A stretch of 34,417 bases of DNA, from the NCBI GenBank assembly GCA_001045525.1, contig LDWW01000035.1, positions 1-34,417 on the forward strand. The letters run 5' to 3'. The notes under the pieces were generated by a model. That model saw only the letters and a list, made by a program, of their open reading frames with translations. It was not told the origin of the DNA and searched no databases. Within the stretch, counting starts at the first letter, position 1, and every line of letters starts with the position of its first letter. Source of the DNA: Chitinispirillum alkaliphilum. GTDB taxonomy: Bacteria; Fibrobacterota; Chitinivibrionia; Chitinivibrionales; Chitinispirillaceae. Made by a program: the position numbers and the translations under genes. Positions 6,447 through 29,295 of the stretch are shown here, one piece after another.

Positions 6447-6667
6447 AAGTTTTCTTTCGACAGGGTGTATGATGGAGCTATTCAGTCTTACAGCTTAAAA
6501 CAGATGCACTGGTTTCTACTCTAACTGACGTTTTTAAATGAAAAAAGTTACAAAAATATGAATCTCACACCCAGTCACCTGATCGGATTTCGCTTCCCGG
6601 ATTAAATGCTTTTCAATACTTATTCTTGTATACTGATGAAAGCGCGCGGGGATATTTTTCTGCCCTT

Positions 6668-6905
6668 GTAAACCCAAAAATTACGCAAATCCAGTTCAGA
6701 ATATCTCGTCCTTTCAGGGCTCCGGGTTCACACGCTCACTCGACCCAGGGCTGCGACGGGCAGACCGTCTTACCCTGGGCTGTTATAGCATGCCCCTTTA
6801 GGGCTAAAGAAAAAGATAAATTCCTGAGACTGTTGCTGTTGCAAATTACGACTGAAGGCGCGAACCTATTATAGCCCGGGGCAAGCCAGTCCGCTGGCGC
6901 AGCGC
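6668..6905. repeat. Dispersed repeat tail, copy C
   Basis: This is a partial copy of the repeat tail in the same orientation as copies A and B. Positions 6674-6830 align with 7355-7495 and share the motif GACCCAGGGCTGCGACGG followed by ACCGTCTTACCCTGGGCTG. That motif is itself an imperfect inverted repeat (CCCAGGG ... CCCTGGG). The end near 6873-6885 (ATAGCCCGGGG) matches 419-431 of copy A. The A-copy tail therefore looks like this one with an internal deletion. It lies upstream of the alpha-2-macroglobulin gene and is not coding. Confidence 0.8.
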
Positions 6906-7003
6906 CGGGTGGTGTCGTGAAAACTAATTATAGCTCTGAAAGAGCGGGATATTCCAGTCTATTATTACTCCGGCAATTATATACGCATAAGAGAGTGTTT
7001 GAG

Positions 7004-7500
7004 TTTCATTACTTTTTTAAGGGTCCAGCGCTAAGAAGCGCTGTTTCAAAAACAATTGGGGCCTTCAGCCCCAAACCCCGACCTACTTTCTTTCCAAGGC
7101 CAAAGAAAGTAGGCAAAGAACGCCTTGGGAGCCCCACACTGGCTCCAATATTCGCGCTTTGGCCGGGGAAGGGCCAAAACTCGAGGACTCGAACAATTGG
7201 CCCCGGGAAAGGACCGGCGAAAGCGCTCATTCGCCAGTGATTGGGGCGGATTTGTACCCGATAGTTTTTTTTTAGGAGCTTACTGCCGTTCGCCCTGTGA
7301 AATAGATGGAGAAAATTTTTGTGCATGTTTAATTGCCGGAGTAATAAAACCCAACATCTCAGAATATCACGCCCTTTCAGGGCTCCGGGTTCACACGCTC
7401 ACTCGACCCAGGGCTGCGACGGCAGACCGTCTTACCCTGGGCTGTTATAGCACGCCCCTTTCAGGGCTAAGAAAAAGATAAATTCCTGAAGAGTGTTGCT
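7004..7500. repeat. Dispersed hairpin-rich repeat, copy B (core plus tail)
   Basis: The core 7004-7352 is a near-identical direct copy of 1-346 and includes the CTACTTTCTTT/AAAGAAAGTAG hairpin at 7083-7112. The tail 7355-7500 repeats the CCCAGGG...CCCTGGG unit seen in copy C. Compared with copy A, about 20 bases are missing at the core/tail junction. The IS91-type transposase remnant starts less than 300 bases further on. Open frames across this unit are repeat artefacts. Confidence 0.85.
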
Positions 7501-7729
7501 GTTGCAAAATACGAAGACGCGAAATAAACTCAAGGTTAAAAAAATACAACATTCGCATCTTTCAGTAGTGAGATGCTCAGAAAACATACCGCTAAAGATC
7601 CCATAGGGTATGGGATACAAAGAAATTTCCGTCGGGCTTACCTCAGGGTGCGGTATACGCAGAAAAATTTCCGCCACGCATCCAAATATACCCCAAAAAA
7701 TATCAGGGGCGGTACGGCTAAAGGAGACT

Positions 7730-7979
7730 ATTTCGCCGCTCTGGATGCGTTGCGCCGTTTCCGTTCACGGCATGCCGGAACCGGAAACCCCGTATCGCCG
7801 AAACCACCGCATATCTTGGGCTGCATTGATCAAGGCAGTTTATGAGGTTGATCCGCTCAGGTGTCCAAATTGTGGTGGTACCATGAAAAACCATCGGATT
7901 TATAGAAGACGATGCCGTGATTGAGAGAACTCTCAAACATTATGTGGCTGGTGCTTATCCCTGCCTTTGCTCAAGCTGA
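7730..7979 (+). pseudogene. IS91-family transposase, C-terminal remnant with frameshift
   Basis: From 7793 the plus strand encodes YRRNHRISWAALIKAVYEVD followed by PLRCPNCGGTMK, the conserved zinc-binding C-terminal region of IS91-type rolling-circle transposases. At about 7886-7893 the frame breaks. One frame over, the homology continues from 7893 as IGFIEDDAVIERTLKHY, the usual continuation of the family, and ends at a stop at 7977-7979. The catalytic N-terminal part with the two tyrosines is absent. The piece is a dead fragment of a mobile element. The similarity upstream of 7793 is too weak to set a firm boundary. Confidence 0.75.
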
Positions 7980-8235
7980 GTGTGCTGTGCAGCTATAACT
8001 ATGGGGGGGAGTAGCGATCGGGCACACAGATTTCAAGACTTTGAACTTGACAGGTTTCTTACACATGAGAAATATTTGACAACTCAGCGTGAATCGAGTT
8101 ATCTTGTAAAAGTTAATGAACGACTTTAGTACTTTCATTTATGTTTTATACAACAGACAATACCTGATAGTATTTGCCCAATGAGAAGTGGTAGGCGGGG
8201 TACTTTTCCATAAACAAATTCAAAGGAGTAGTAGT

Positions 8236-8730
8236 GTGATTAAAGAAGTCCTTTATTCGGTATTCATTGCAGCAGTGGTCATCTTAGTGGGATGTTCAAA
8301 CTCTCAATCACCCTCCAGTGCCTACAGAGAAATGGTTCAAGCCGAAAAAAACCAGAACTGGGGAAAGGTTTATGATTCCTATTGTGAATCCTCTCAGGAA
8401 AAAGTTGTGGAAATGTTTAAATCTATGCAGGCACTCAGCAACGGCCTGTTCTCCATGTTGACAGATGGAGAAAACGAGGACTCTGCAGGTCAGAGTGATA
8501 ACGAACAACTTAGTGGCAGAGATTTTTTTGTAAAGACTATGACGTCGGGACAAGATATCTCTTCGAACCAAATCGGCAAGGTTATAGATGAAAAAATTAC
8601 CGGGGACAGAGCTGTGCTCACCATAGAACTTGAAAAGGATGAGGATGATCCAAGGTCTGCTTTTATGGACGACACTGTAGAGGTGGGGATGGTGCTTGAA
8701 AACGGAAGATGGAAAATAGTTCTTGAGTAG
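8236..8730 (+). CDS. Small lipoprotein, possibly DUF4878/NTF2-like
   Basis: This is a 164-residue predicted lipoprotein. The start is GTG at 8236, preceded by AAGGAG at 8223-8228; an earlier in-frame GTG at 8188 has no comparable site and would put 16 odd residues before the signal peptide. The signal segment ends in LVGC, with Cys20 as the lipidation site. The mature part is acidic and begins with a helix (YREMVQAEKNQNWGKVYDSY). It ends in a beta-rich segment (GDRAVLTIELE ... VGMVLENGRWKIVLE). That layout resembles small NTF2-like lipoproteins with a closing WKI strand (DUF4878 type). The function is unknown. It appears to be monocistronic, lying between the transposase remnant and a repeat-rich gap. 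Confidence 0.8.
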   Translation: MIKEVLYSVFIAAVVILVGCSNSQSPSSAYREMVQAEKNQNWGKVYDSYCESSQEKVVEMFKSMQALSNGLFSMLTDGENEDSAGQSDNEQLSGRDFFVKTMTSGQDISSNQIGKVIDEKITGDRAVLTIELEKDEDDPRSAFMDDTVEVGMVLENGRWKIVLE

Positions 8731-8777
8731 AAGGCTGAATCTGATCTTTCAAAAACCCCTAATTCCCCCAAAGTTAA

Positions 8778-8832
8778 ATTGACAGTACGAGGGATTTCGA
8801 CATGAGTTTAAGTACACCTTCGTACTGTCAAT
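8778..8832. repeat. Perfect 13-bp inverted repeat downstream of the lipoprotein
   Basis: ATTGACAGTACGA at 8778-8790 is matched exactly by its reverse complement at 8820-8832, with 29 bases between. It lies about 50 bases after the lipoprotein stop. There is no T-run on either side, so a simple intrinsic terminator is not clear. It could instead be an element end or a protein-binding site. Confidence 0.6.
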
Positions 8833-9127
8833 CTGGTTTGTTTGTTTCTGCATTCCTGAAAAAACTCTGTGGCCGGCTCAGGTATACAAAGTATTCAACT
8901 ATATTAATAGTTATATAATGAGTCCTATACGCCGGAAGTTTATTTGAAGAATACAATTCTAAATCTATTTTATGTCCGTTTGCATGGTGCGAATTGTATG
9001 TGTAAGTAAATAGTGGGTTAACCCGCTTTCTTGATTGAATTCTCCCTAGATTGTGCCCCAATACCGGCTATGTTACTATAAGCTGCTGCTTATTCTTTTT
9101 CTCTTCTTATTGGTTTAATATTAAAGT

Positions 9128-9408
9128 GTGGTGGATAATGTTTACAAAATATTAGCCTGTAAAAAGTTGTTACTGATTTTTGTCTTCAGCGGTGTATTAT
9201 TATTATTTACAAAAAAGAAACAGTTGCTAATATCAATCAAAATGAAAATCTTGGTGATGTTGCATTCTCAGCAAAAATTGTACAAAGCGTGGTGCTCAGC
9301 AACATTATTTGCAATCCGAAACAGCTCCTGAAATGCACACTCTTAAGTCAAATGCCTGTATATGAAACCAGCCGCCCGGGTAAGCGCGCAAGGTTGGACG
9401 AAGGGTGA
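9128..9408 (+). pseudogene. Possible frameshifted small secreted-protein gene (unrecognised)
   Basis: An open frame from GTG 9128 encodes a short start and a hydrophobic, signal-like segment (CKKLLLIFVFSGVLLLF). It then reaches a run of six A followed by G at 9211-9217. In the zero frame the downstream sequence is low quality. In the -1 frame it continues as a more protein-like stretch (ETVANINQNENLGDVAFSAK...) to a stop at 9406-9408. Either one A was lost from the homopolymer and the gene is broken, or the A AAA AAG heptamer is used as a slippery site. There is no recognisable family. The end runs into the GC-rich repeat-like block beginning near 9366, which may have truncated the gene. Confidence 0.3.
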
Positions 9409-9680
9409 CACTTTCTTAAGTGTCAGTGCGATCAGCAGGGCGGAGTCTTCGCAGCCCCATAAACGACGCACCGAGGAGGAACGACGAGCCCGTAGGAGAA
9501 CCGACCCGAGTCCTCGAAGGGTTGCGCCCAAGGTATTGTTCTTTTTTGTATTATTCTCAGTTTGCATTGGTGTTTTTAGGATGCGATACAAAGGGTAGTC
9601 ATCGAGCTCTAATGGGACCATTTGTGCTGGTCCGGAGAGCCTGTAAGGAATTCGTGATGTCGTTTTCGGCAGCCGCATCC
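9366..9680. repeat. GC-rich repeat-like block with hairpins, non-coding
   Basis: This block differs sharply in composition from the AT-rich sequence on its left and contains small inverted repeats: TGACACTT/AAGTGTCA at 9406-9425 and GGACCA/TGGTCC near 9613-9632. Open frames exist on both strands but have no start signals and no family likeness. It looks like a dispersed non-coding element inserted between the lipoprotein and the helicase gene. Only one copy is present in the window, so the repeat status is inferred from its look. The rest of the gap 8731-9769 holds nothing else I can name. Confidence 0.4.
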
Positions 9681-9769
9681 TATCTCATTTACACTTTTAG
9701 TTTTATGACAGTCTCAGATTTCCCATTCAGCCTGTTATCCATTTTTTCCGAAATTCGCCCCTGCACTCC

Positions 9770-21230: not shown

Positions 21231-23498
21231 ATGAAAAAAGGAAACAGGTTACAATTTATCGGGGTGGTAGTTTTCATTGCTTTGTTTTACACGCATTCTT
21301 CAGGGCAATATCGCGCTTTTCCGCAAGCCGTTGATTTTCCAAACACCATAAAGCCTTCACACGTTACCCAGCAACAGATGAACAATTCGATTACCTCTTT
21401 TTACGAGAGCTGGAAAACGGATCTGCTTCGTGACGCGGAGAGTACAACTGGTGGGTACTATATATATGCTCCTGGTACCAATACCACACAGGATGCGCTG
21501 ACTGTTTCAGAGGCGCATGGTTATGCCATGATTATAGCTGTATTGATGGCGGGTTATGATCCTGAAGCACAGGATATTTTTGATGGTTTGTTCAAAATGA
21601 AAAGAGTTCATCACTCAACACGCACTCCGTATCTTATGTCCTGGCAGATAACGGGGAGGAGCAATTCACATGAGAATATAGGTGATCGTCATGAGACTGC
21701 TACTGATGGGGATCTTGACATGGCATACGCTCTTCTTCTTGCACATTACCAGTGGGGCTCAAACGGGTCGATCAATTATCTTCAGGAGGCCAAGAACTCT
21801 ATCGCAGCGATCCGTGATTTCGACATGAGTCACTCTACCAACCGCCTTAAACTCGGCTCGTGGGCCAGATACACCGATGAGCATGAAACCAACACCCGGT
21901 CTTCAGATTGGATGCCTGCATTTTTCAGAAACTTCAAAGAGCATGATAACCACAGGATCTGGGATGATGGAATCAGCACAATTTACAGTATATTCAACGC
22001 AGTGAGGCATAGCACCACAGGATTGGTTCCCGATTTTGTCGTTGGTCACAATCCGGTTCCTGCTTCGGCATATTTTCTGGAGACCCGGTATGATGGGGAT
22101 TACCATAATAATGCCTGCCGTGTGCCGTGGCGAATGGCGCAGGATTATATCCATTTCGGGGCACAAGAGTCAAAAAACGCCATGACCAGAATGATGGATT
22201 TTTTTCTGGAAAGTACAGGTGGGGATCCGGGTAATATAAAGAATGGCTATCTGCTTAACGGGACTCCCACAAGAGATGACAGATGGGGACCATGGAGATC
22301 ATACCTTTCACCCATCATGGTTGGTGCAATGATTGATCCCAAGTACCAGAGTTTTTTAAATCAGGGCTGGGATTTGATGAACAGATGGAATTCTCAGGAC
22401 GGGTATTACTCAAGCACTATTAACCTTCTCTGCATGCTTCTTATTTCAGGAAACTGGTGGAATCCACATATGCCGGGAGCGCCCGATGGGTATATGCTTT
22501 CCACTAATTCCAGAGGGGGCACTGTTTCAGTATCTCCCGAGAGGAGCATTTACGAACCCGGGACTCAGGTTCAGCTTACGGCTGCGCCTAATTCCGGTAA
22601 CACTTTCACAGGCTGGACAGGAGATATTTCTTCTTCTGAAAACCCTGTTACCATCACCATAAATTCAAACATGAGTGTGATTGCGAATTTTTCCCGTGAG
22701 GACGGGGGGGATATTGAGCCGGATAATCTTGTGATGCTTGCGGACTGGGGTGCAGATAGTGATAATCTGGGTTCAGCCATAGACACAGGGAGCTCAATTG
22801 TAAGTGGTGGAGTGGCAGAGATGAGTTACTCTATTGTTCCGCGACCTGACAGCAGCTCATGGCCCTGGGCAGAAATGACGGCTTCTTTTGACAACGATTT
22901 TACCGGTCTTTCAAAAGTCACTCTGGTTTACCGAAGTACCAATTCTTTTGATGTGGCACTTGGGATGCCTGGGTTTCTTGATGATGGAACGGCACATCGA
23001 AAAACCTTGAACGCAAGCAGTTCATGGAGTACCGTAGAAATCCCAATTTCAGAATTTGAACAACCATCCTGGGTTGCAAATAAGACAACACTCAGCACAA
23101 ACAATATTGAGGTTCTGACTATTCTCCCCATACGCAACGATACAAGACAAACTAACGGTACAATTGAAATCCAGTCAATTGTTTTTGATGGGGTAAGCTG
23201 GGCGACTTCAATTACAGCCAAAAAATCCAAGAACCTGGACAGAATGTTTTCTGGCGCAAGTGTCAACATAAGAAATAATATGCTTGAGCTGCAGGTAAAT
23301 GAACCCGGAAGGTATTCGCTTACCTTAAACCAGCTGAATGGAAGAAGGGCTGCGAACTATGCAAATGAGTATTTTTCTGCAGGTTCCCATTTTATACCGT
23401 TTAATTCGAACTCATTAACCCCCGGTGTATACCTTCTGAATCTCAGAAAAGAGGGCAATGTTTCGCTGGGAAAAGTTAAAAGGGTTTTGATCAGATAA
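21231..23498 (+). CDS. Secreted glycoside hydrolase family 8 enzyme with C-terminal sorting-like tail
   Basis: This 755-residue secreted enzyme has a signal peptide (about 1-25). The GH8 catalytic domain (about 35-415) carries the general acid Glu94 in TVSEAHGYAM, the conserved Asp159/Asp161 in ATDGDLDMAYALL, SDWMPAFFRNF (225-235) and NACRVPWRMAQDY (294-306). The residue that is the catalytic base Asp in subfamily GH8a is Asn294 here. A repeat domain of the InlB-B/GWTGD type (about 421-488) follows, then a beta-sandwich likely to bind carbohydrate (about 498-655). The tail (about 678-755) ends in PGVYLLNLRKEG...KVKRVLIR, like Por/T9SS-type sorting domains. The target may be beta-glucan, chitosan or xylan. 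It is followed by a terminator hairpin. Confidence 0.92.
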   Translation: MKKGNRLQFIGVVVFIALFYTHSSGQYRAFPQAVDFPNTIKPSHVTQQQMNNSITSFYESWKTDLLRDAESTTGGYYIYAPGTNTTQDALTVSEAHGYAMIIAVLMAGYDPEAQDIFDGLFKMKRVHHSTRTPYLMSWQITGRSNSHENIGDRHETATDGDLDMAYALLLAHYQWGSNGSINYLQEAKNSIAAIRDFDMSHSTNRLKLGSWARYTDEHETNTRSSDWMPAFFRNFKEHDNHRIWDDGISTIYSIFNAVRHSTTGLVPDFVVGHNPVPASAYFLETRYDGDYHNNACRVPWRMAQDYIHFGAQESKNAMTRMMDFFLESTGGDPGNIKNGYLLNGTPTRDDRWGPWRSYLSPIMVGAMIDPKYQSFLNQGWDLMNRWNSQDGYYSSTINLLCMLLISGNWWNPHMPGAPDGYMLSTNSRGGTVSVSPERSIYEPGTQVQLTAAPNSGNTFTGWTGDISSSENPVTITINSNMSVIANFSREDGGDIEPDNLVMLADWGADSDNLGSAIDTGSSIVSGGVAEMSYSIVPRPDSSSWPWAEMTASFDNDFTGLSKVTLVYRSTNSFDVALGMPGFLDDGTAHRKTLNASSSWSTVEIPISEFEQPSWVANKTTLSTNNIEVLTILPIRNDTRQTNGTIEIQSIVFDGVSWATSITAKKSKNLDRMFSGASVNIRNNMLELQVNEPGRYSLTLNQLNGRRAANYANEYFSAGSHFIPFNSNSLTPGVYLLNLRKEGNVSLGKVKRVLIR

Positions 23499-23703: not shown

Positions 23704-24915
23704 ATGAGACTATCGGTGCCGTATAATCCTGACCCTGAAGTTTTCGAAGAAATCTGCGGGTTTGGTGAAGTGAAAGAGGTGTATGGCAAACTGCGTCAGG
23801 ATATAATCGGTGGTGGCCGGTCCTCTTATACGCTGCCATCTGTCACTCTTAAAAAGCTTGAAAAACAGATCGGACATGGTGCGGAGAAAGGTGTTGTATT
23901 CAATTATCTTCTCAATGCGGCATCTCTGGACGGAAGTGAGCAGACACGCAGGGGGCAGAAAAGGATAAGAAGATTTATAGATCAAATCTGTGATGCCGGA
24001 GTCAGGGCTGTCACGGTATCATCACCACTTCTTTTGAGAATTTTAAAAAAAGAATATCCTCAGCTTTCTGTACGGGTAGGTGTTTTTGCAATGGTGGGTA
24101 ATTTAGGTAAAGCCAGGCAGTGGGAGGATTTGGGTGCAGATGTAATTTGTCTGAGTGCCATAGCGGTAAACCGGAATTTCGACGAGCTGAAGCGGTTGCG
24201 TGAGGGTGTGAGCTGTGGTCTTCAGTTACTTGTAAATGCAAGTTGTCTCAGAGATTGCAGCTGGGAGCTTGCTCATATGAACATGCTGACTCAGGCATCG
24301 CGTACGGGACATCAAAACAGAGGCTTCAATCTCGATTACTGTTTCCTTCACTGCTCTGGTACCCGAATAAAAAATCCGGTTAATTATATAAGGTCAATAT
24401 GGATTCGTCCCGAAGACATTTATCTCTATGAATCGATGGGTTATGATGATTTCAAGCTGGTTGAGAGAAGCTGTCCGGGAGATCTGCTTATCCTAAGAAT
24501 TAAAGCTTACATAAAGAGAAATTTTGAGGGTAATCTTCTGGAGCTGGTTGGGCCGGTTGCCAGGGTTAAGATGGAACAGGGAATGAGAAAACGGGAATAC
24601 CTCTCTATGCTAAGGCGCATGGTGCACCCGGGGAAAATCAAGATTTCAAGCCTTTTGAAGTTTAAAAATTACTGTGAGGAAGTAATTCCCGGTTTGTATG
24701 ATGAAAAATCTCCTGTTTACATAGACAATCGCTCGCTTGACGGGTACCTGGAGGAAATACGGAACAGAAATTGTCAGAGTCGGGGATGTCTGGACTGTGG
24801 ATATTGCAAAAAAATTGCCGGTAAAGTAGTACGGGTCAATGAAGAGTGGCAGAGGCGCATGATTCAGAAGAACAGAAAATTATGGGAAGAGATGGATTGT
24901 GGCAGGTTCTGGTAA
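23704..24915 (+). CDS. U32-family Fe-S protein (UbiU/UbiV/RlhA/TrhP relatives)
   Basis: This 403-residue protein belongs to the U32 'peptidase' family, several members of which are now known to be Fe-S proteins in oxygen-independent hydroxylations. The N-terminal half reads as a TIM-barrel-like domain (GVRAVTVSSPLLLRILKKEY, LSVRVGVFAM). A core cysteine set follows in the family arrangement: Cys181, Cys185, Cys213, Cys217 (DYCFLHC) and Cys257 (VERSC), with the typical IRPEDIYLYESMGYDDFKLV between. An extra C-terminal cluster, Cys357-x4-Cys362-x2-Cys365-x2-Cys368, could hold a second metal site. The SD is GGAGGAG at 23687-23693. It converges on the ketosynthase gene with a 22-base gap. Inference: an anaerobic hydroxylase for the neighbouring lipid pathway; an RNA-modifying role is the main alternative. 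Confidence 0.82.
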   Translation: MRLSVPYNPDPEVFEEICGFGEVKEVYGKLRQDIIGGGRSSYTLPSVTLKKLEKQIGHGAEKGVVFNYLLNAASLDGSEQTRRGQKRIRRFIDQICDAGVRAVTVSSPLLLRILKKEYPQLSVRVGVFAMVGNLGKARQWEDLGADVICLSAIAVNRNFDELKRLREGVSCGLQLLVNASCLRDCSWELAHMNMLTQASRTGHQNRGFNLDYCFLHCSGTRIKNPVNYIRSIWIRPEDIYLYESMGYDDFKLVERSCPGDLLILRIKAYIKRNFEGNLLELVGPVARVKMEQGMRKREYLSMLRRMVHPGKIKISSLLKFKNYCEEVIPGLYDEKSPVYIDNRSLDGYLEEIRNRNCQSRGCLDCGYCKKIAGKVVRVNEEWQRRMIQKNRKLWEEMDCGRFW

Positions 24916-24937
24916 GGTTCTTTTCCTTGCAGATTTC

Positions 24938-26308
24938 TCAGTCACTTTTTCCTATGAGAAGTGCGGCGTTATGTCCCCCAAAGGCAAAAGAGTTACTTAT
25001 TGCGAAATTTATCGGTGCCGAAACTGATTTTTTTACGAAGTTAAGCGGGGCAACCGGGTTAAAAAGGTTGGGGCAGGGGTGTAGTTTCCCCTCTTTTATG
25101 GAAAGCAGACACACTGCGGCTTCAATTGCCCCCGATGCTCCGATTGTGTGACCGATCAGTCCTTTGGTGCTGTTTATGTATGGTTTGTGCGGAAATTGCT
25201 CATCCAAAATCTGTGTTTCGATTTGGTCATTGAGCTCGGTGCCGGTGCCGTGAGCATTTATATAGTCAATTCGGTTTGTTTCAATACGTGCATTATTGCA
25301 AAGTCGTTCGAGCATCGAATTGATCTCTGTCCCGGAGGGGTCGATACTCATTAAACTGTAAGCATCGAAGGATTCTTCGTAGTTTATGATCTCCCCCAGA
25401 ATCGATGCGTTGCGCTTTTGTGCATGGTGGAGGGATTCCAGGACCAGCATACCCGAACCGCCTTCTGAGAAGAGAAATCCGGAACGGTTCTGATCAAAAG
25501 GGCAGTTCGCGCTTTCAGGCTGATCGCACCTTTTCACCAATGTTTTGGAATCATCAAACCCACGGAAAATTCCACCATGATCCTCATACAGGTATTCACT
25601 TCCACCCGTTAAAATAAAGTCGGCCCGCCCCGAAGCAATCTCCTGAAATGCCTGCCCGATTGCCATGGTTCCCGATGCACAGGCACTGCAGACGGTTCTG
25701 TTTATTCCCTTGAGGCCAAATTTCAACCCGGTATATGCAGCTGGTGCGTTGGGCATAATCATAGAAACTATAAAGGGATTGAAGCGGCGGCTCCCCTGAA
25801 TCCTCTCCTTTACACGAACGAGAGCGGATTTAATCTGAGGATGTTCATGCTCGATTTCCCCAAGAGTTTTCAGATCATTGAGCAGAGGGGTTTTTACTTG
25901 GTTGATGTTGTTGTGAAGCAGGGAATTTATACCTCCTACCCCTGTGCCTGTTATCACGCCGCTTCTCATTGGGTCAAGAGTATCACATGTATATGTGTTG
26001 TGACGTTTATCTGCCTGTTCTATACATATGCCAGCCATGGCGAGGGCTTCAAACGATGCCTCAATTGTAAGCATTGTCACCATATCAAGCTGCATCGATT
26101 CTATTCTGCTGATATGATCGGGGGAAAAGGCTATCTTCGGTAACGGAGCCCATAGCTTGGAGGTATACTGCTTATGTTTTGTCCAGTTTTCCGGAATAGG
26201 GGCAACACTCTGTTCACCGTTCAGGGCAGAATTCCAGAAACGCTTTACTCCCTGCCCAAGTGGGGTACAAAGCCCGATACCGGTAACTACAACTCTGTTA
26301 TTGATCAT
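24938..26308 (-). CDS. FabF-like beta-ketoacyl-ACP synthase
   Basis: This 456-residue condensing enzyme extends an acyl chain on ACP. The Cys-His-His set of KAS I/II enzymes is complete: Cys210 in VCSACASG, His353 in NAHGTGT and His387 in STKGLIGHTIGASGA, with Lys382. The C-terminal loop NSFAFGGHNAALLI is also typical. The protein is about 40 residues longer than E. coli FabF, with extra sequence at about residues 48-60 and 100-175. It starts on an ATGA overlap with the stop of the ACP gene, so it is translationally coupled to it. The absence of other fab genes suggests a dedicated secondary-pathway ketosynthase rather than the housekeeping copy. Confidence 0.94.
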   Translation of the reverse strand: MINNRVVVTGIGLCTPLGQGVKRFWNSALNGEQSVAPIPENWTKHKQYTSKLWAPLPKIAFSPDHISRIESMQLDMVTMLTIEASFEALAMAGICIEQADKRHNTYTCDTLDPMRSGVITGTGVGGINSLLHNNINQVKTPLLNDLKTLGEIEHEHPQIKSALVRVKERIQGSRRFNPFIVSMIMPNAPAAYTGLKFGLKGINRTVCSACASGTMAIGQAFQEIASGRADFILTGGSEYLYEDHGGIFRGFDDSKTLVKRCDQPESANCPFDQNRSGFLFSEGGSGMLVLESLHHAQKRNASILGEIINYEESFDAYSLMSIDPSGTEINSMLERLCNNARIETNRIDYINAHGTGTELNDQIETQILDEQFPHKPYINSTKGLIGHTIGASGAIEAAVCLLSIKEGKLHPCPNLFNPVAPLNFVKKSVSAPINFAISNSFAFGGHNAALLIGKSD

Positions 26309-26556
26309 GAGAGTTTCATTCGTGATTCAATGTACTGGGCAATTGTTTGGGGTGTTGTAAGCTTTGCGGCTTCCTGATCATCGATACTCTCTCCAAACTC
26401 CTCTTCGAGAGCCATGAGAAGGCTTACTGTGTCAAGTGAATCTGCATTGAGATCCTCTTTTATCCGGCTGTCGGGTTTTATGGAAGATTCCTCAATCCGT
26501 AGAACTTCTTTGATAATCTCAGAAACTCTTTTGTATACTTCTGCACTGTCCTCCAC
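26305..26556 (-). CDS. Acyl carrier protein
   Basis: This 83-residue acidic carrier protein has the phosphopantetheine attachment site Ser40 in the motif LNADSLDTV. The four-helix pattern of ACPs is visible, ending in TPQTIAQYIESRMKL. The start is GTG 26556 with AGGAG five to six bases upstream. The stop overlaps the ketosynthase start (ATGA). It is divergent from the type III PKS gene 98 bases away, so a shared regulatory region is likely. I read it as the carrier of this locus's own ketosynthase. Confidence 0.94.
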   Translation of the reverse strand: MEDSAEVYKRVSEIIKEVLRIEESSIKPDSRIKEDLNADSLDTVSLLMALEEEFGESIDDQEAAKLTTPQTIAQYIESRMKLS

Positions 26557-26654
26557 TTGAACTCCTCTCTAAATGTAAAACCTTACTGAGTGAAAATAGT
26601 ATTTTATCGTTAATTGAAAACAGGTTTAAAATTCAAAAGAAAAGATTACCCGAT

Positions 26655-27746
26655 ATGGCTCACAGATTAAAAAAACAAAAATCACCTCATTTATGGATAA
26701 AGGGGTTGGGAAGTTCTGTTCCTCCTTCTGTTCTCAAACAGCAGAGCGCTTCGGAGATGATCGAGGAGTATTTCAAGGATCAGCTCACGCCAAGGAGCAT
26801 AGATGTTATCCGGAAAGTTTTTTCGCATGAGAGTGTCAGGACACGCAGGGTAGCTCTTGATGAGGGGATGGAATGGAGGGATCTTAAGAATGAGGATCCC
26901 GACAGGCGTGCAGAACGTTTCCTTAAGTGGGCTGTTTATCTTGGATGCGATGCGGCAGAAAAGGCAATGAAGAAGGCGGGTGTAAAACCTGCGGATGTGA
27001 GGGCTTTGGCTGTCAACACCTGTACCGGTTATGTGTGTCCGGGCTTAAGTACATATATCTCTCAGGAACTGGGGCTTTCAGGAGATGTGATGGCATTTGA
27101 TCTGGTTGGAAGCGGATGTGGCGGCGCTATTCCTGTTTTGCAGTGTGCGGGAAATGCTCTTGGTTCCTTCGATGATGGAGTTGCTTTGGCTATTTCGGTT
27201 GAAATCTGTACAGCTACTTTTCAGATGGGAAATGATATCAGTCTTATTGTTTCGAATGCGCTGTTTGGTGACGGAGCAGGTGCAGCTGTTATCGGGAGTC
27301 AAAGCCCGGGGCTTGGTGTACTGAGCTGGTCAAGTTTCTACGAACAAAAATTCAGAGAAGAAATCAGGTTTACCTACAAAAACGGACAGCTTCATAATAA
27401 ACTAACCCCTCAGCTTCCAAAGATTATCGGTGAAGTTGTACCCCCTTTTGTAACTGAATTTTTGTCCTCAAATGAGCTTGCGCCGGGAGATATCGCATTC
27501 TGGGCGATTCATCCCGGGGGGGACAGGGTCATAACGGAGCTCCAGAAGGCGCTTGGACTGAGTGAAAGGGATGTGGCCCCGGCGCGCACGGTTCTTAAAA
27601 ATCTGGGTAATATGTCATCACCAACAGTATGGTTTGAACTTGAAGACTATATAAAAGGATCCCCTTGTAAAAATGATAAGATTATGATGCTGGCTTTTGG
27701 GGCAGGATTGTCGGCTCATACCGTTCTGCTGGAAAATCAAATGTAA
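26655..27746 (+). CDS. Type III polyketide synthase (chalcone/alkylresorcinol synthase family)
   Basis: This 363-residue homodimeric-type condensing enzyme extends a starter acyl group with malonyl units and cyclises the product. The catalytic triad of type III PKSs is readable: Cys155 in VGSGCGGAIPVL, His286 in FWAIHPGGDRVI and Asn319 in NLGNMSSPTVWFELED. The family stretch NTCTGYVCPGLSTYISQELG (121-140) is also present. It is not a FabH: the GNMSS motif and the HPGG motif are those of the chalcone/stilbene synthase group. With an adjacent ACP and ketosynthase, a long-chain acyl starter giving an alkylresorcinol or alkylpyrone is the most likely product type (inference). Its RBS is weak. Confidence 0.92.
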   Translation: MAHRLKKQKSPHLWIKGLGSSVPPSVLKQQSASEMIEEYFKDQLTPRSIDVIRKVFSHESVRTRRVALDEGMEWRDLKNEDPDRRAERFLKWAVYLGCDAAEKAMKKAGVKPADVRALAVNTCTGYVCPGLSTYISQELGLSGDVMAFDLVGSGCGGAIPVLQCAGNALGSFDDGVALAISVEICTATFQMGNDISLIVSNALFGDGAGAAVIGSQSPGLGVLSWSSFYEQKFREEIRFTYKNGQLHNKLTPQLPKIIGEVVPPFVTEFLSSNELAPGDIAFWAIHPGGDRVITELQKALGLSERDVAPARTVLKNLGNMSSPTVWFELEDYIKGSPCKNDKIMMLAFGAGLSAHTVLLENQM

Positions 27747-27845
27747 ATGTCAGGCAGAACACCGGAATGAGTTGCCAAACATGAGCAAATACAAAATTTA
27801 TAAAAGGCAGGAACACTTCGGCTTCCCTACAGTGCGGAAAAGACT

Positions 27846-28574
27846 TCACTTACCAATCTTTTCCGCTTCATACAAAGCGGTTACCCCAAACATGAAAAAT
27901 TTTCTTTTCCGTATAGAAAACCCATGTTTTCTGAACAGTTTTATAATGTGTTTGTTATCGGGAAATCTGTTCAGGCTTTTTGCAATATAGGAATAGATTT
28001 CAGGATTACCGTGTAAAACCACTCCCCAGAGCGCACCCCAGAGGTAAAGGAAGAAAAATTCTGCCTTTGAGAGAATGGGGTTGCTGAATTTTGCAAAGTC
28101 AAGAAGTATCACCTTGCCGTCCGGTTTGAGGACCCTGTTGATTTCAGTAAGACAGATACCAGGGTCCGGGGCATTGCGCAGAGCATAACTGCCGCATACC
28201 ACATCTACAGAATTACTTTTTATTCCAAGATGATTCATATCCTGAAGAGAAAAGGGGAGTGAACATTTAGCCTTCTCAGGTGCCTGGCTTACCATCTCAG
28301 GGCTTAGATCCGAGGCTACAACTTTTGCCTCCGGAAAACGCTTTTTGCATCCGTAAGCGATATCCCCCGTACCTGAAGCGATATCCAGTATTACACCCTT
28401 GCCGACCGGAGGAATCATTTGGAGAAGAACTCTTTTCCATGCCTTGTCCCGGTTAAAGGAGAGAAGACGGGTTACCAGATTGTATTTGGGAGCCACAACA
28501 GAGAAAAGCCACTTGTTGTAGGATTTTTTCTTTTCCGGGTAACTGAGAGTGTCTTCTGAAAACTTTGATTTCAA
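27846..28574 (-). CDS. UbiE/MenG-type C-methyltransferase
   Basis: This protein of about 242 residues is a SAM-dependent methyltransferase of the UbiE/COQ5/MenG family, which C-methylates quinone precursors. Evidence: APKYNLVTRLLSFNRDKAWKR at the N-terminus, SAM motif ILDIASGTGDIA, NSVDVVCGSYALRNAPD, EINRVLKPDGKVILLDFAK and the C-terminal YSYIAKSLNRFPDNKHIIKL. I prefer TTG 28574, with GGAG ten bases upstream and a length close to the family. The frame stays open to a TTG at 28676 with no RBS, which would add 34 unrelated residues. It converges on the type III PKS gene. It could be the housekeeping menaquinone enzyme or a pathway-specific one; the position favours the latter. Confidence 0.9.
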   Translation of the reverse strand: MKSKFSEDTLSYPEKKKSYNKWLFSVVAPKYNLVTRLLSFNRDKAWKRVLLQMIPPVGKGVILDIASGTGDIAYGCKKRFPEAKVVASDLSPEMVSQAPEKAKCSLPFSLQDMNHLGIKSNSVDVVCGSYALRNAPDPGICLTEINRVLKPDGKVILLDFAKFSNPILSKAEFFFLYLWGALWGVVLHGNPEIYSYIAKSLNRFPDNKHIIKLFRKHGFSIRKRKFFMFGVTALYEAEKIGK

Positions 28575-28863
28575 AGTGTTTGTTTCTCCGGGTTTTGTTT
28601 GGATGTCTTTACAGTTAATCAACTGGTGTGAAAATGTGTAATCAGTGATTAAAATAGTATCTGTGTAGTTGATCAATTGTTAAAAGAAAAATGAAAATAC
28701 TGCATGGTGTATCTTTATACATGTGATAAAATGAGCAGAGCGGATAAGGGAGAATGTCTTTGGTATCGATTTTTTTATTGTTCATCTCCCTTAAAGCTTT
28801 GCCAGTTTTGGCGGTAACACTGGGAGTATTCAGCTTGAAAATTTTTGCCTCTGTATCGGTGTT

Positions 28864-29295
28864 TTAATCCTCTTCATCCCACTCATCGGACAGATCCTCT
28901 TCACAATACCCTTTTTGGAAACAGTCCGGACAGTAGGCGTTGCACCCATAGGTGATAAAGGATGAGCTGTTTTTTTCCGGAATCGCTACCTTATCGGTAA
29001 GAACATGGTCGATAATGTAATTATAGAGAAGTTTGTCAGGCACGGTATCGGGGCATTCCACATAGATGTTATACTTACTCAGAATAGAGAGGATCTCTTC
29101 TGTTTTTTCATTAAGCTGTTTTTCATCGAGAGAGTCAGAAGGGGGGAATGTGTAATTTTCAGGGAAAAGAGAACGGACAGAGCTTTCGGGGCCGCTCTCC
29201 ATATGCTTGATCTGATCAATCAATGAGTTGTTCTCACCCGGTTCACCAATTGGTTCTGTTGATTTTTGTTTGTCCCAGTCAGTGTTGAAAATCAT
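28864..29295 (-). CDS. Unrecognised acidic protein with C-terminal cysteine cluster
   Basis: I do not recognise this 143-residue protein. It has no signal peptide or membrane segment. The middle is helical (LDEKQLNEKTEEILSILSKY). The C-terminus carries a compact cluster, YGCNAYCPDCFQKGYCEED (Cys-x3-Cys-x2-Cys-x4-Cys), followed by an Asp/Glu-rich end. The spacing suits a zinc or Fe-S site. GAGGTG lies about six bases before the ATG. It lies upstream of the methyltransferase gene on the same strand, with a gap of nearly 290 bases, so shared transcription is possible but not evident. Confidence 0.75.
   Translation of the reverse strand: MIFNTDWDKQKSTEPIGEPGENNSLIDQIKHMESGPESSVRSLFPENYTFPPSDSLDEKQLNEKTEEILSILSKYNIYVECPDTVPDKLLYNYIIDHVLTDKVAIPEKNSSSFITYGCNAYCPDCFQKGYCEEDLSDEWDEED

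Follow-up and report, generated by a model that had tools for sequence, protein, structure and literature searches.

Here we describe a gene cluster in a stretch of DNA from Chitinispirillum alkaliphilum (NCBI GenBank assembly GCA_001045525.1, contig LDWW01000035.1, 34,417 nucleotides), which we call the window and which is one whole contig of the genome (G000; 4,434,773 bases in 160 contigs). The cluster comprises five adjacent genes encoding a predicted iron-sulfur protein of the U32 family, a FabF-type beta-ketoacyl-acyl carrier protein synthase (KS), an acyl carrier protein (ACP), a type III polyketide synthase (PKS), and a UbiE-type methyltransferase. On balance, we think that the locus directs the oxygen-independent synthesis of a phenolic lipid, in which a resorcinol-type lipid is hydroxylated and methylated. 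That U32 and the PKS work in one pathway is a conclusion that we hold with high confidence, and we find it rather likely that U32 hydroxylates the lipid; that a methylated lipid of the hydroquinone type results is an even call.

In the route that we propose, the dedicated ACP/KS pair would load or elongate a long acyl starter, which the type III PKS would extend with malonyl units and cyclize to an alkylresorcinol-type phenol. The U32 protein would hydroxylate the ring without oxygen, probably with prephenate as the oxygen donor, and would thereby fill the place of the flavin hydroxylase in the srsABC, hidABC, and pkqABC pathways. Methylation of a ring carbon by the UbiE-type enzyme would then yield a methylated lipid of the hydroquinone type. 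Relatives also have another class I methyltransferase (family F4), which would methylate this lipid further, and an MMPL exporter together with a YceI lipid-binding protein, which would move it. We infer the substrates, the order of the steps, the hydroxylation and the ring position it affects, as well as the choices between resorcinol and pyrone and between quinone and phenolic lipid.

The evidence is read from sequence, and consists of the genes and their active sites, their conservation and co-occurrence, and the exchange of U32 with flavin partners. In what follows, labels beginning with G denote genomes and those beginning with L denote loci; the order to which the window belongs is represented by 40 genomes (G000-G039).

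Conservation of the Cluster

Across the 168 Fibrobacterota genomes surveyed, U32 occurs in 18 and the type III PKS in 20, and the PKS is present in all 18 of the U32 genomes (Fisher p = 2.8e-22). Eight other genomes of the window's family encode the PKS, at 44-56% identity. Neighborhoods in this and other families keep U32, KS, ACP, PKS, UbiE, and F4, with shuffled orientations and with outer flanks that differ between families; some families add the MMPL exporter and a YceI-like protein, and at two loci (L067 and L097) U32-ACP-KS-PKS-F4 all lie on the same strand. Even in G025, where U32 and the PKS are ~124 kb apart on one contig, the two still co-occur. The clustering is far beyond chance.

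With an alignment of U32 as the query, we found 575 relatives, of which 80 were kept; a scan of contigs with one U32 sequence as the query gave no matches. Outside Fibrobacterota, 18 of the kept loci have a PKS within a few kb of U32, often accompanied by UbiE, F4, MMPL, and YceI. The phyla with U32 and PKS are Planctomycetota, Bdellovibrionota, Myxococcota, Thermodesulfobacteriota, Nitrospinota, Lentisphaerota, Verrucomicrobiota, and Pseudomonadota. The original prediction for this DNA, made from the window alone, staked itself on the neighborhood being conserved in relatives, and it is: the block is kept across Fibrobacterota, and U32 with a type III PKS (and UbiE) recurs in about eight other phyla.

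Exchange of U32 with Flavin Enzymes

When 56 PKS loci were sorted by the partner of the PKS, 38 had U32, 10 a flavin oxidoreductase, 8 neither, and 0 both (Fisher p = 1.2e-6), a value subject to the reservations that these loci are related rather than independent, that 18 were found via U32, and that the U32 total includes one row (G025) with the distant U32 mentioned above. On the PKS tree, the flavin label changes seven times, with at least six of the changes forced by well supported branches; a U32 locus (L163) and a flavin locus (L287) are sisters with full support. Fifty U32 genomes carry no PKS linked to U32, and 20 of them have one elsewhere (E 1e-20); beside these unlinked PKS genes we found a flavin oxidoreductase in 9 cases, a second U32 paralogue in 4, and neither in 7, a group that includes loci truncated by contig ends.

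Within the window's order, G026 has the arrangement F4-PKS-UbiE-class A flavin monooxygenase (PF01494, 198 bits) and no U32 match. No other genome of the order has a PF01494 match near 200 bits, or such a match beside the PKS; G026 also has cydA, and its PKS falls outside the main Fibrobacterota PKS group on the tree. The window contains no flavin hydroxylase or oxidoreductase, and the best PF01494 match in its genome reaches 49 bits. The earlier suggestion that U32 replaces an oxygen-dependent hydroxylase draws support from this exclusive and repeated exchange, and from the DAHP synthase/chorismate mutase genes found beside U32, which are described below.

The U32 Protein

Since the Pfam U32 profile (PF01136) covers only residues 87-177 (34.4 bits), the cluster U32 represents a divergent subfamily; NCBIfam gave no match for it. 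Its architecture combines a TIM barrel, two CxxxC motifs (C181, C185 and C213, C217), and a C-terminal C357-x4-C362-x2-C365-x2-C368 motif. C181, C185, C217, C362, and C368 are present in 58/58 homologues, C357 and C365 in 57/58, and C213 in 54/58, and an RPED motif is invariant among the 58. The eight conserved cysteines suggest two possible iron-sulfur sites. An AlphaFold model (pLDDT 93) aligns best with 5d88, also a U32 protein, over 228 residues (Z 20.6); past this match, the fold search returned generic TIM barrels only.

Two other U32 genes in the genome, one TrhP-like (1e-71) and one RlhA-like (7e-60), match over hundreds of residues. The match of the cluster U32 to TrhP is only local (7e-6 over 66 residues), and the protein is distant from all four Escherichia coli paralogues. 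In HH comparisons, TrhP was the nearest E. coli relative compared (95%) and UbiU scored 73%, with no match to UbiV. An RlhA/TrhP role was rejected on the grounds that full-length similarity is lacking and that the genome has separate genes of both types; a placement with RlhA/TrhP, which would have told against the original prediction, was looked for, and the cluster U32 stands apart. UbiU/UbiV orthology is unsupported as well, given ~15-17% identity, the weak HH match to UbiU, and none to UbiV. By these comparisons, the cluster U32 is a distinct, so far nameless U32 subfamily.

Other contexts were also met. Paralogues that are 34-35% identical to the window's U32 lie beside radical-SAM-type genes (family F7) at L085 and L086, which may reflect another role, and genes of the carotenoid type (CrtI-like, aldehyde dehydrogenase, and glycosyltransferase) lie next to the cluster U32 at L076, L078, and L080 (families f3, f5, and f6).

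Prephenate as a Possible Oxygen Donor

Of the 69 U32 loci outside Fibrobacterota, 22 have a DAHP synthase gene directly beside U32 and in the same orientation; it lies upstream in 18, at a distance of -9 to 150 bp, and downstream in 4 (the 22 loci are L122, L125, L127-L132, L134, L136-L138, L146, L150-L154, L161, L166, L168, and L169). The DAHP synthase appears in most cases to be fused to chorismate mutase, which both of the genes checked by Pfam include and the product of which is prephenate. TrhP requires prephenate for oxygen-independent tRNA hydroxylation (PMC6599085), and prephenate has been proposed as the oxygen donor for U32 proteins, among which UbiU and UbiV, both [4Fe-4S] proteins, act on an aromatic ring without oxygen (PMC10470549). 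As evidence from gene context, the adjacency of U32 and DAHP synthase would fit a prephenate-dependent hydroxylase and suggests a local supply of prephenate. In the window itself, no DAHP synthase or chorismate mutase gene adjoins U32.

At four of the loci with DAHP synthase (L125, L137, L150, and L166), U32 stands with DAHP synthase/chorismate mutase, a flavoprotein of the geranylgeranyl-reductase type, and an oxidosqualene-cyclase-like gene, and three of them (L137, L150, and L166) also carry mevalonate and isoprenoid genes near U32. An oxygen-independent oxygenation step in triterpenoid synthesis is possible at these loci. We tentatively suggest, in the knowledge that it may well not hold, that the cluster U32 represents a new family of lipid hydroxylases that depend on prephenate and not on oxygen, which would serve as anaerobic stand-ins for flavin hydroxylases across many phyla and, where they lie beside oxidosqualene-cyclase-like genes in Myxococcota/Deltaproteobacteria, might take part in anaerobic triterpenoid oxygenation.

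Polyketide Synthase, Methyltransferase, and Quinone Background

Judged by their active sites, the PKS, KS, and ACP genes are intact. The complete Cys-His-Asn triad that had been read in the PKS is there (Cys155/His286/Asn319) and is kept across 16 sequences; the KS triad (Cys210/His353/His387) is likewise conserved in relatives, and the ACP carries the serine of its DSL motif.

The methyltransferase scores 158.9 bits against TIGR01934, for which the cut-off is 158.35, and so belongs to the UbiE family. In the 40 genomes of the order, strong UbiE homologues occur in 16/19 genomes with the PKS versus 0/21 without it (p = 1.5e-8). An earlier worry was that this protein might be the only menaquinone methyltransferase of the genome: it is indeed the sole strong UbiE homologue there, but a menaquinone role (MenG) was rejected, because the genome has no MqnA/MqnD and no MenD over the curated cut-off, and thus no known menaquinone pathway. 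MqnA/MqnD (PF02621) are found in 123/168 genomes overall and in 0/40 of the window's order, in which MenD passes the cut-off in one genome (G037). The UbiA family (PF01040) was dropped as a marker of quinone synthesis, since 167/168 genomes and every control have it; its matches in G000 are weak.

Thirty-nine of the 40 genomes of the order lack both MenD over the cut-off and MqnA/MqnD, and three of these (G001, a fragment in G024, and G026) still have a cydA match, which raises the question of which quinol feeds their cytochrome bd. In G001, which has PKS-ACP-KS and no U32, a gene for a UbiE-type methyltransferase lies ~4 kb beyond cydA and cydB (L216:2714-9474).

Layout of the Locus

Searches of open reading frames, Pfam, and NCBIfam recovered all five genes of the families originally named, at the place originally given (Table 1), including the overlap of KS and ACP, which amounts to 4 nt.

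Table 1. Features of the cluster and its immediate surroundings, in window positions
Feature	Position	Strand	Basis
U32-family protein, 403 aa, distinct subfamily; candidate oxygen-independent hydroxylase	23704..24915	+	PF01136 34.4 bits; conserved Cys/RPED; AlphaFold model
FabF-type beta-ketoacyl-ACP synthase (KS), Cys-His-His intact	24938..26308	-	PF00109/PF02801; score under NCBIfam fabF cut-off
Acyl carrier protein (ACP)	26305..26556	-	TIGR00517 over cut-off; DSL serine motif
98-bp divergent intergenic region, ACP/type III PKS; likely promoter region for both units	26557..26654	.	Open reading frame coordinates
Type III PKS, 363 aa, Cys155/His286/Asn319	26655..27746	+	Chal_sti_synt domains; 1ted match; conserved in relatives
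UbiE/COQ5-type methyltransferase, 276 aa, TTG start (internal true start possible)	27846..28676	-	PF01209 122 bits; TIGR01934 158.9 bits
143-aa Cys-rich protein, same strand as and upstream of UbiE; membership uncertain	28864..29295	-	No Pfam/NCBIfam family

Because the strands alternate, with U32 and KS convergent, ACP and PKS divergent, and PKS and UbiE convergent, the five genes do not form one operon here and would make up 3-4 transcription units. Promoter and terminator scans, including those of the gap between ACP and PKS, gave matches no better than shuffles, and Rfam gave no match. The Cys-rich protein has no relative among the homologous loci.

Elsewhere in the window, positions 21231-23498 (+) encode a secreted GH8 glycosidase with an InlB-type repeat and a C-terminal extension, which adjoins the cluster and is not conserved with it. 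Positions 6447-9769 (~3.3 kb) hold short open reading frames only, with no Pfam family over the cut-off among those tested and no Rfam match.

Alternative Explanations

The PKS may instead make alkylpyrones, which UbiE and F4 would methylate, with U32 hydroxylating the acyl chain or the pyrone, or acting otherwise, so that the product would be a pyrone lipid and not a quinol. The nearest solved structure to the PKS is PKS18 (1ted, 1.8e-39), and the best solved relatives, PKS18 and PKS11, carry annotations as alpha-pyrone or long-chain enzymes; among NCBIfam families DpgA comes closest to the PKS, with a score far below the cut-off. Trp283 of the PKS is invariant, and were it the counterpart of ArsB W281 it would predict a resorcinol, but this equivalence is not established because PKS18 also has a Trp at the aligned place. 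Speaking for a resorcinol is the fact that flavin oxidoreductases hold the U32 position in related PKS loci, as in the alkylresorcinol operons of Planctomycetota (PMC10896814), and a phenol ring would be the better fit for a UbiE-type C-methyltransferase. We consider a pyrone lipid unlikely. Less probable again is a polyketide quinone that carries electrons instead of menaquinone, a role suggested for pkqABC in actinobacteria. Such a carrier would accord with the occurrence of MqnA/MqnD in 0/20 genomes with the PKS versus 123/148 without it (p = 8e-14), although this contrast tracks deep lineages and is therefore not independent evidence. The near absence of MenD from the order, the presence of the PKS in all four genomes of the order with a cydA match (p = 0.04), and the UbiE homologue close to cydAB in G001 point the same way. 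However, menaquinone genes are missing from PKS-free genomes of the order too, and these data therefore do not show that the PKS replaces menaquinone. Strain ACht6-1 of C. alkaliphilum, from which the window very probably comes, is an obligate, fermentative anaerobe that forms lipid cysts in old cultures, and its genome was reported to have no genes for aerobic or anaerobic respiration and no NADH dehydrogenase complex (PMC4814513); together with our failure to find cydA in the window's genome, this makes a respiratory quinone role unlikely here. A structural membrane lipid is the more likely product in this organism, and any link to the lipid cysts is speculation.

It is also conceivable that U32 modifies RNA or protein and that its place beside the PKS is metabolically meaningless, given that the known U32 proteins RlhA and TrhP act on RNA and that TrhP is the nearest E. 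coli relative by HH comparison. This we regard as very improbable: every U32 genome of Fibrobacterota has the PKS, the two genes are adjacent in many phyla, U32 exchanges with flavin enzymes, and the genome has its TrhP-like and RlhA-like proteins besides.

Several points weigh against the oxygen-independent phenolic lipid that we favor. Its chemistry and product are unproven, and the resorcinol step is uncertain because the closest solved relatives of the PKS (PKS18 and PKS11) are pyrone synthases. U32 proteins of this family are not confined to the pathway, since a PKS is missing at E 1e-20 from 30 of the 50 genomes in which U32 has none linked to it. In the G001 neighborhood examined, neither U32 nor a flavin enzyme accompanies PKS-ACP-KS; the completeness of G026 is just 69%; and linked KS and ACP genes were found in Fibrobacterota only. 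To the reservations on the 56 loci given above should be added that most of the flavin partners belong to the geranylgeranyl-reductase superfamily, and that a hydroxylase role for such partners is unproven (PMC10896814).

Comparison with Known Systems

Phenolic-lipid and polyketide-quinone pathways are taken to require oxygen at the hydroxylation step. Clusters of a type III PKS, a methyltransferase, and a flavin enzyme are already known (PMC10896814, PMC9927152). In the literature that we searched, which leaves most subscription journals outside it, we found neither a U32 protein in the place of the flavin enzyme nor any joint mention of U32, type III polyketide synthase, and quinone. If our proposal is true, the recurrent exchange of a flavin enzyme for U32 would show how anaerobes make hydroxylated ring lipids, and oxygen-independent hydroxylation would reach past ubiquinone and RNA. 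The cultivated strain ACht6-1 (DSM 24539), if it is indeed the source of the window, would be a host for testing the lipid, the enzyme, and the dependence on prephenate.

The Azotobacter ars locus reportedly places dedicated acyl-supply enzymes, namely type I fatty acid synthase subunits, beside its type III PKS. Acyl supply appears to be dedicated here too, in the form of a stand-alone KS and ACP instead of such subunits; we know of no U32 in the ars locus.

With TrhP and RlhA, the cluster U32 shares a degree of kinship, TrhP being its nearest E. coli relative, and the DAHP synthase/chorismate mutase genes beside its relatives match the use of prephenate. Those proteins have Cx6C where the cluster U32 has CxxxC, and they act on RNA, whereas the context of the cluster U32 is lipid synthesis. 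UbiU and UbiV of E. coli have in common with it the U32 fold and a richness in cysteine, and they do without oxygen what flavin hydroxylases do to an aromatic lipid, the part that we propose for the cluster U32. Candidates for the four cysteines of such a [4Fe-4S] site are C181, C185, C213, and C217, which are conserved in at least 54/58 homologues but differ in spacing. UbiU and UbiV form a pair, while the window has a single U32 with an extra C-terminal four-Cys motif; their partner UbiT and ubiquinone genes have no equivalent in the window, and its U32 is unlinked to UbiA-type quinone genes.

The closest parallels are srsABC (Streptomyces griseus), pkqABC (Mycobacterium and Streptomyces), hidABC (picocyanobacteria), and the planctomycetal mtr-fdo-t3pks, which likewise unite a type III PKS, one or more methyltransferases, and a third, redox gene, and in which the PKS product of the tested cases is an alkylresorcinol (PMC10896814, PMC9927152). 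An intact PKS triad and an adjacent methyltransferase are both found in our locus, the latter being of the UbiE type, with F4 in addition in relatives, and Fibrobacterota add their dedicated KS and ACP. Where clusters of the srsABC/pkqABC/hidABC type have a flavin oxidoreductase, the window has U32 instead.

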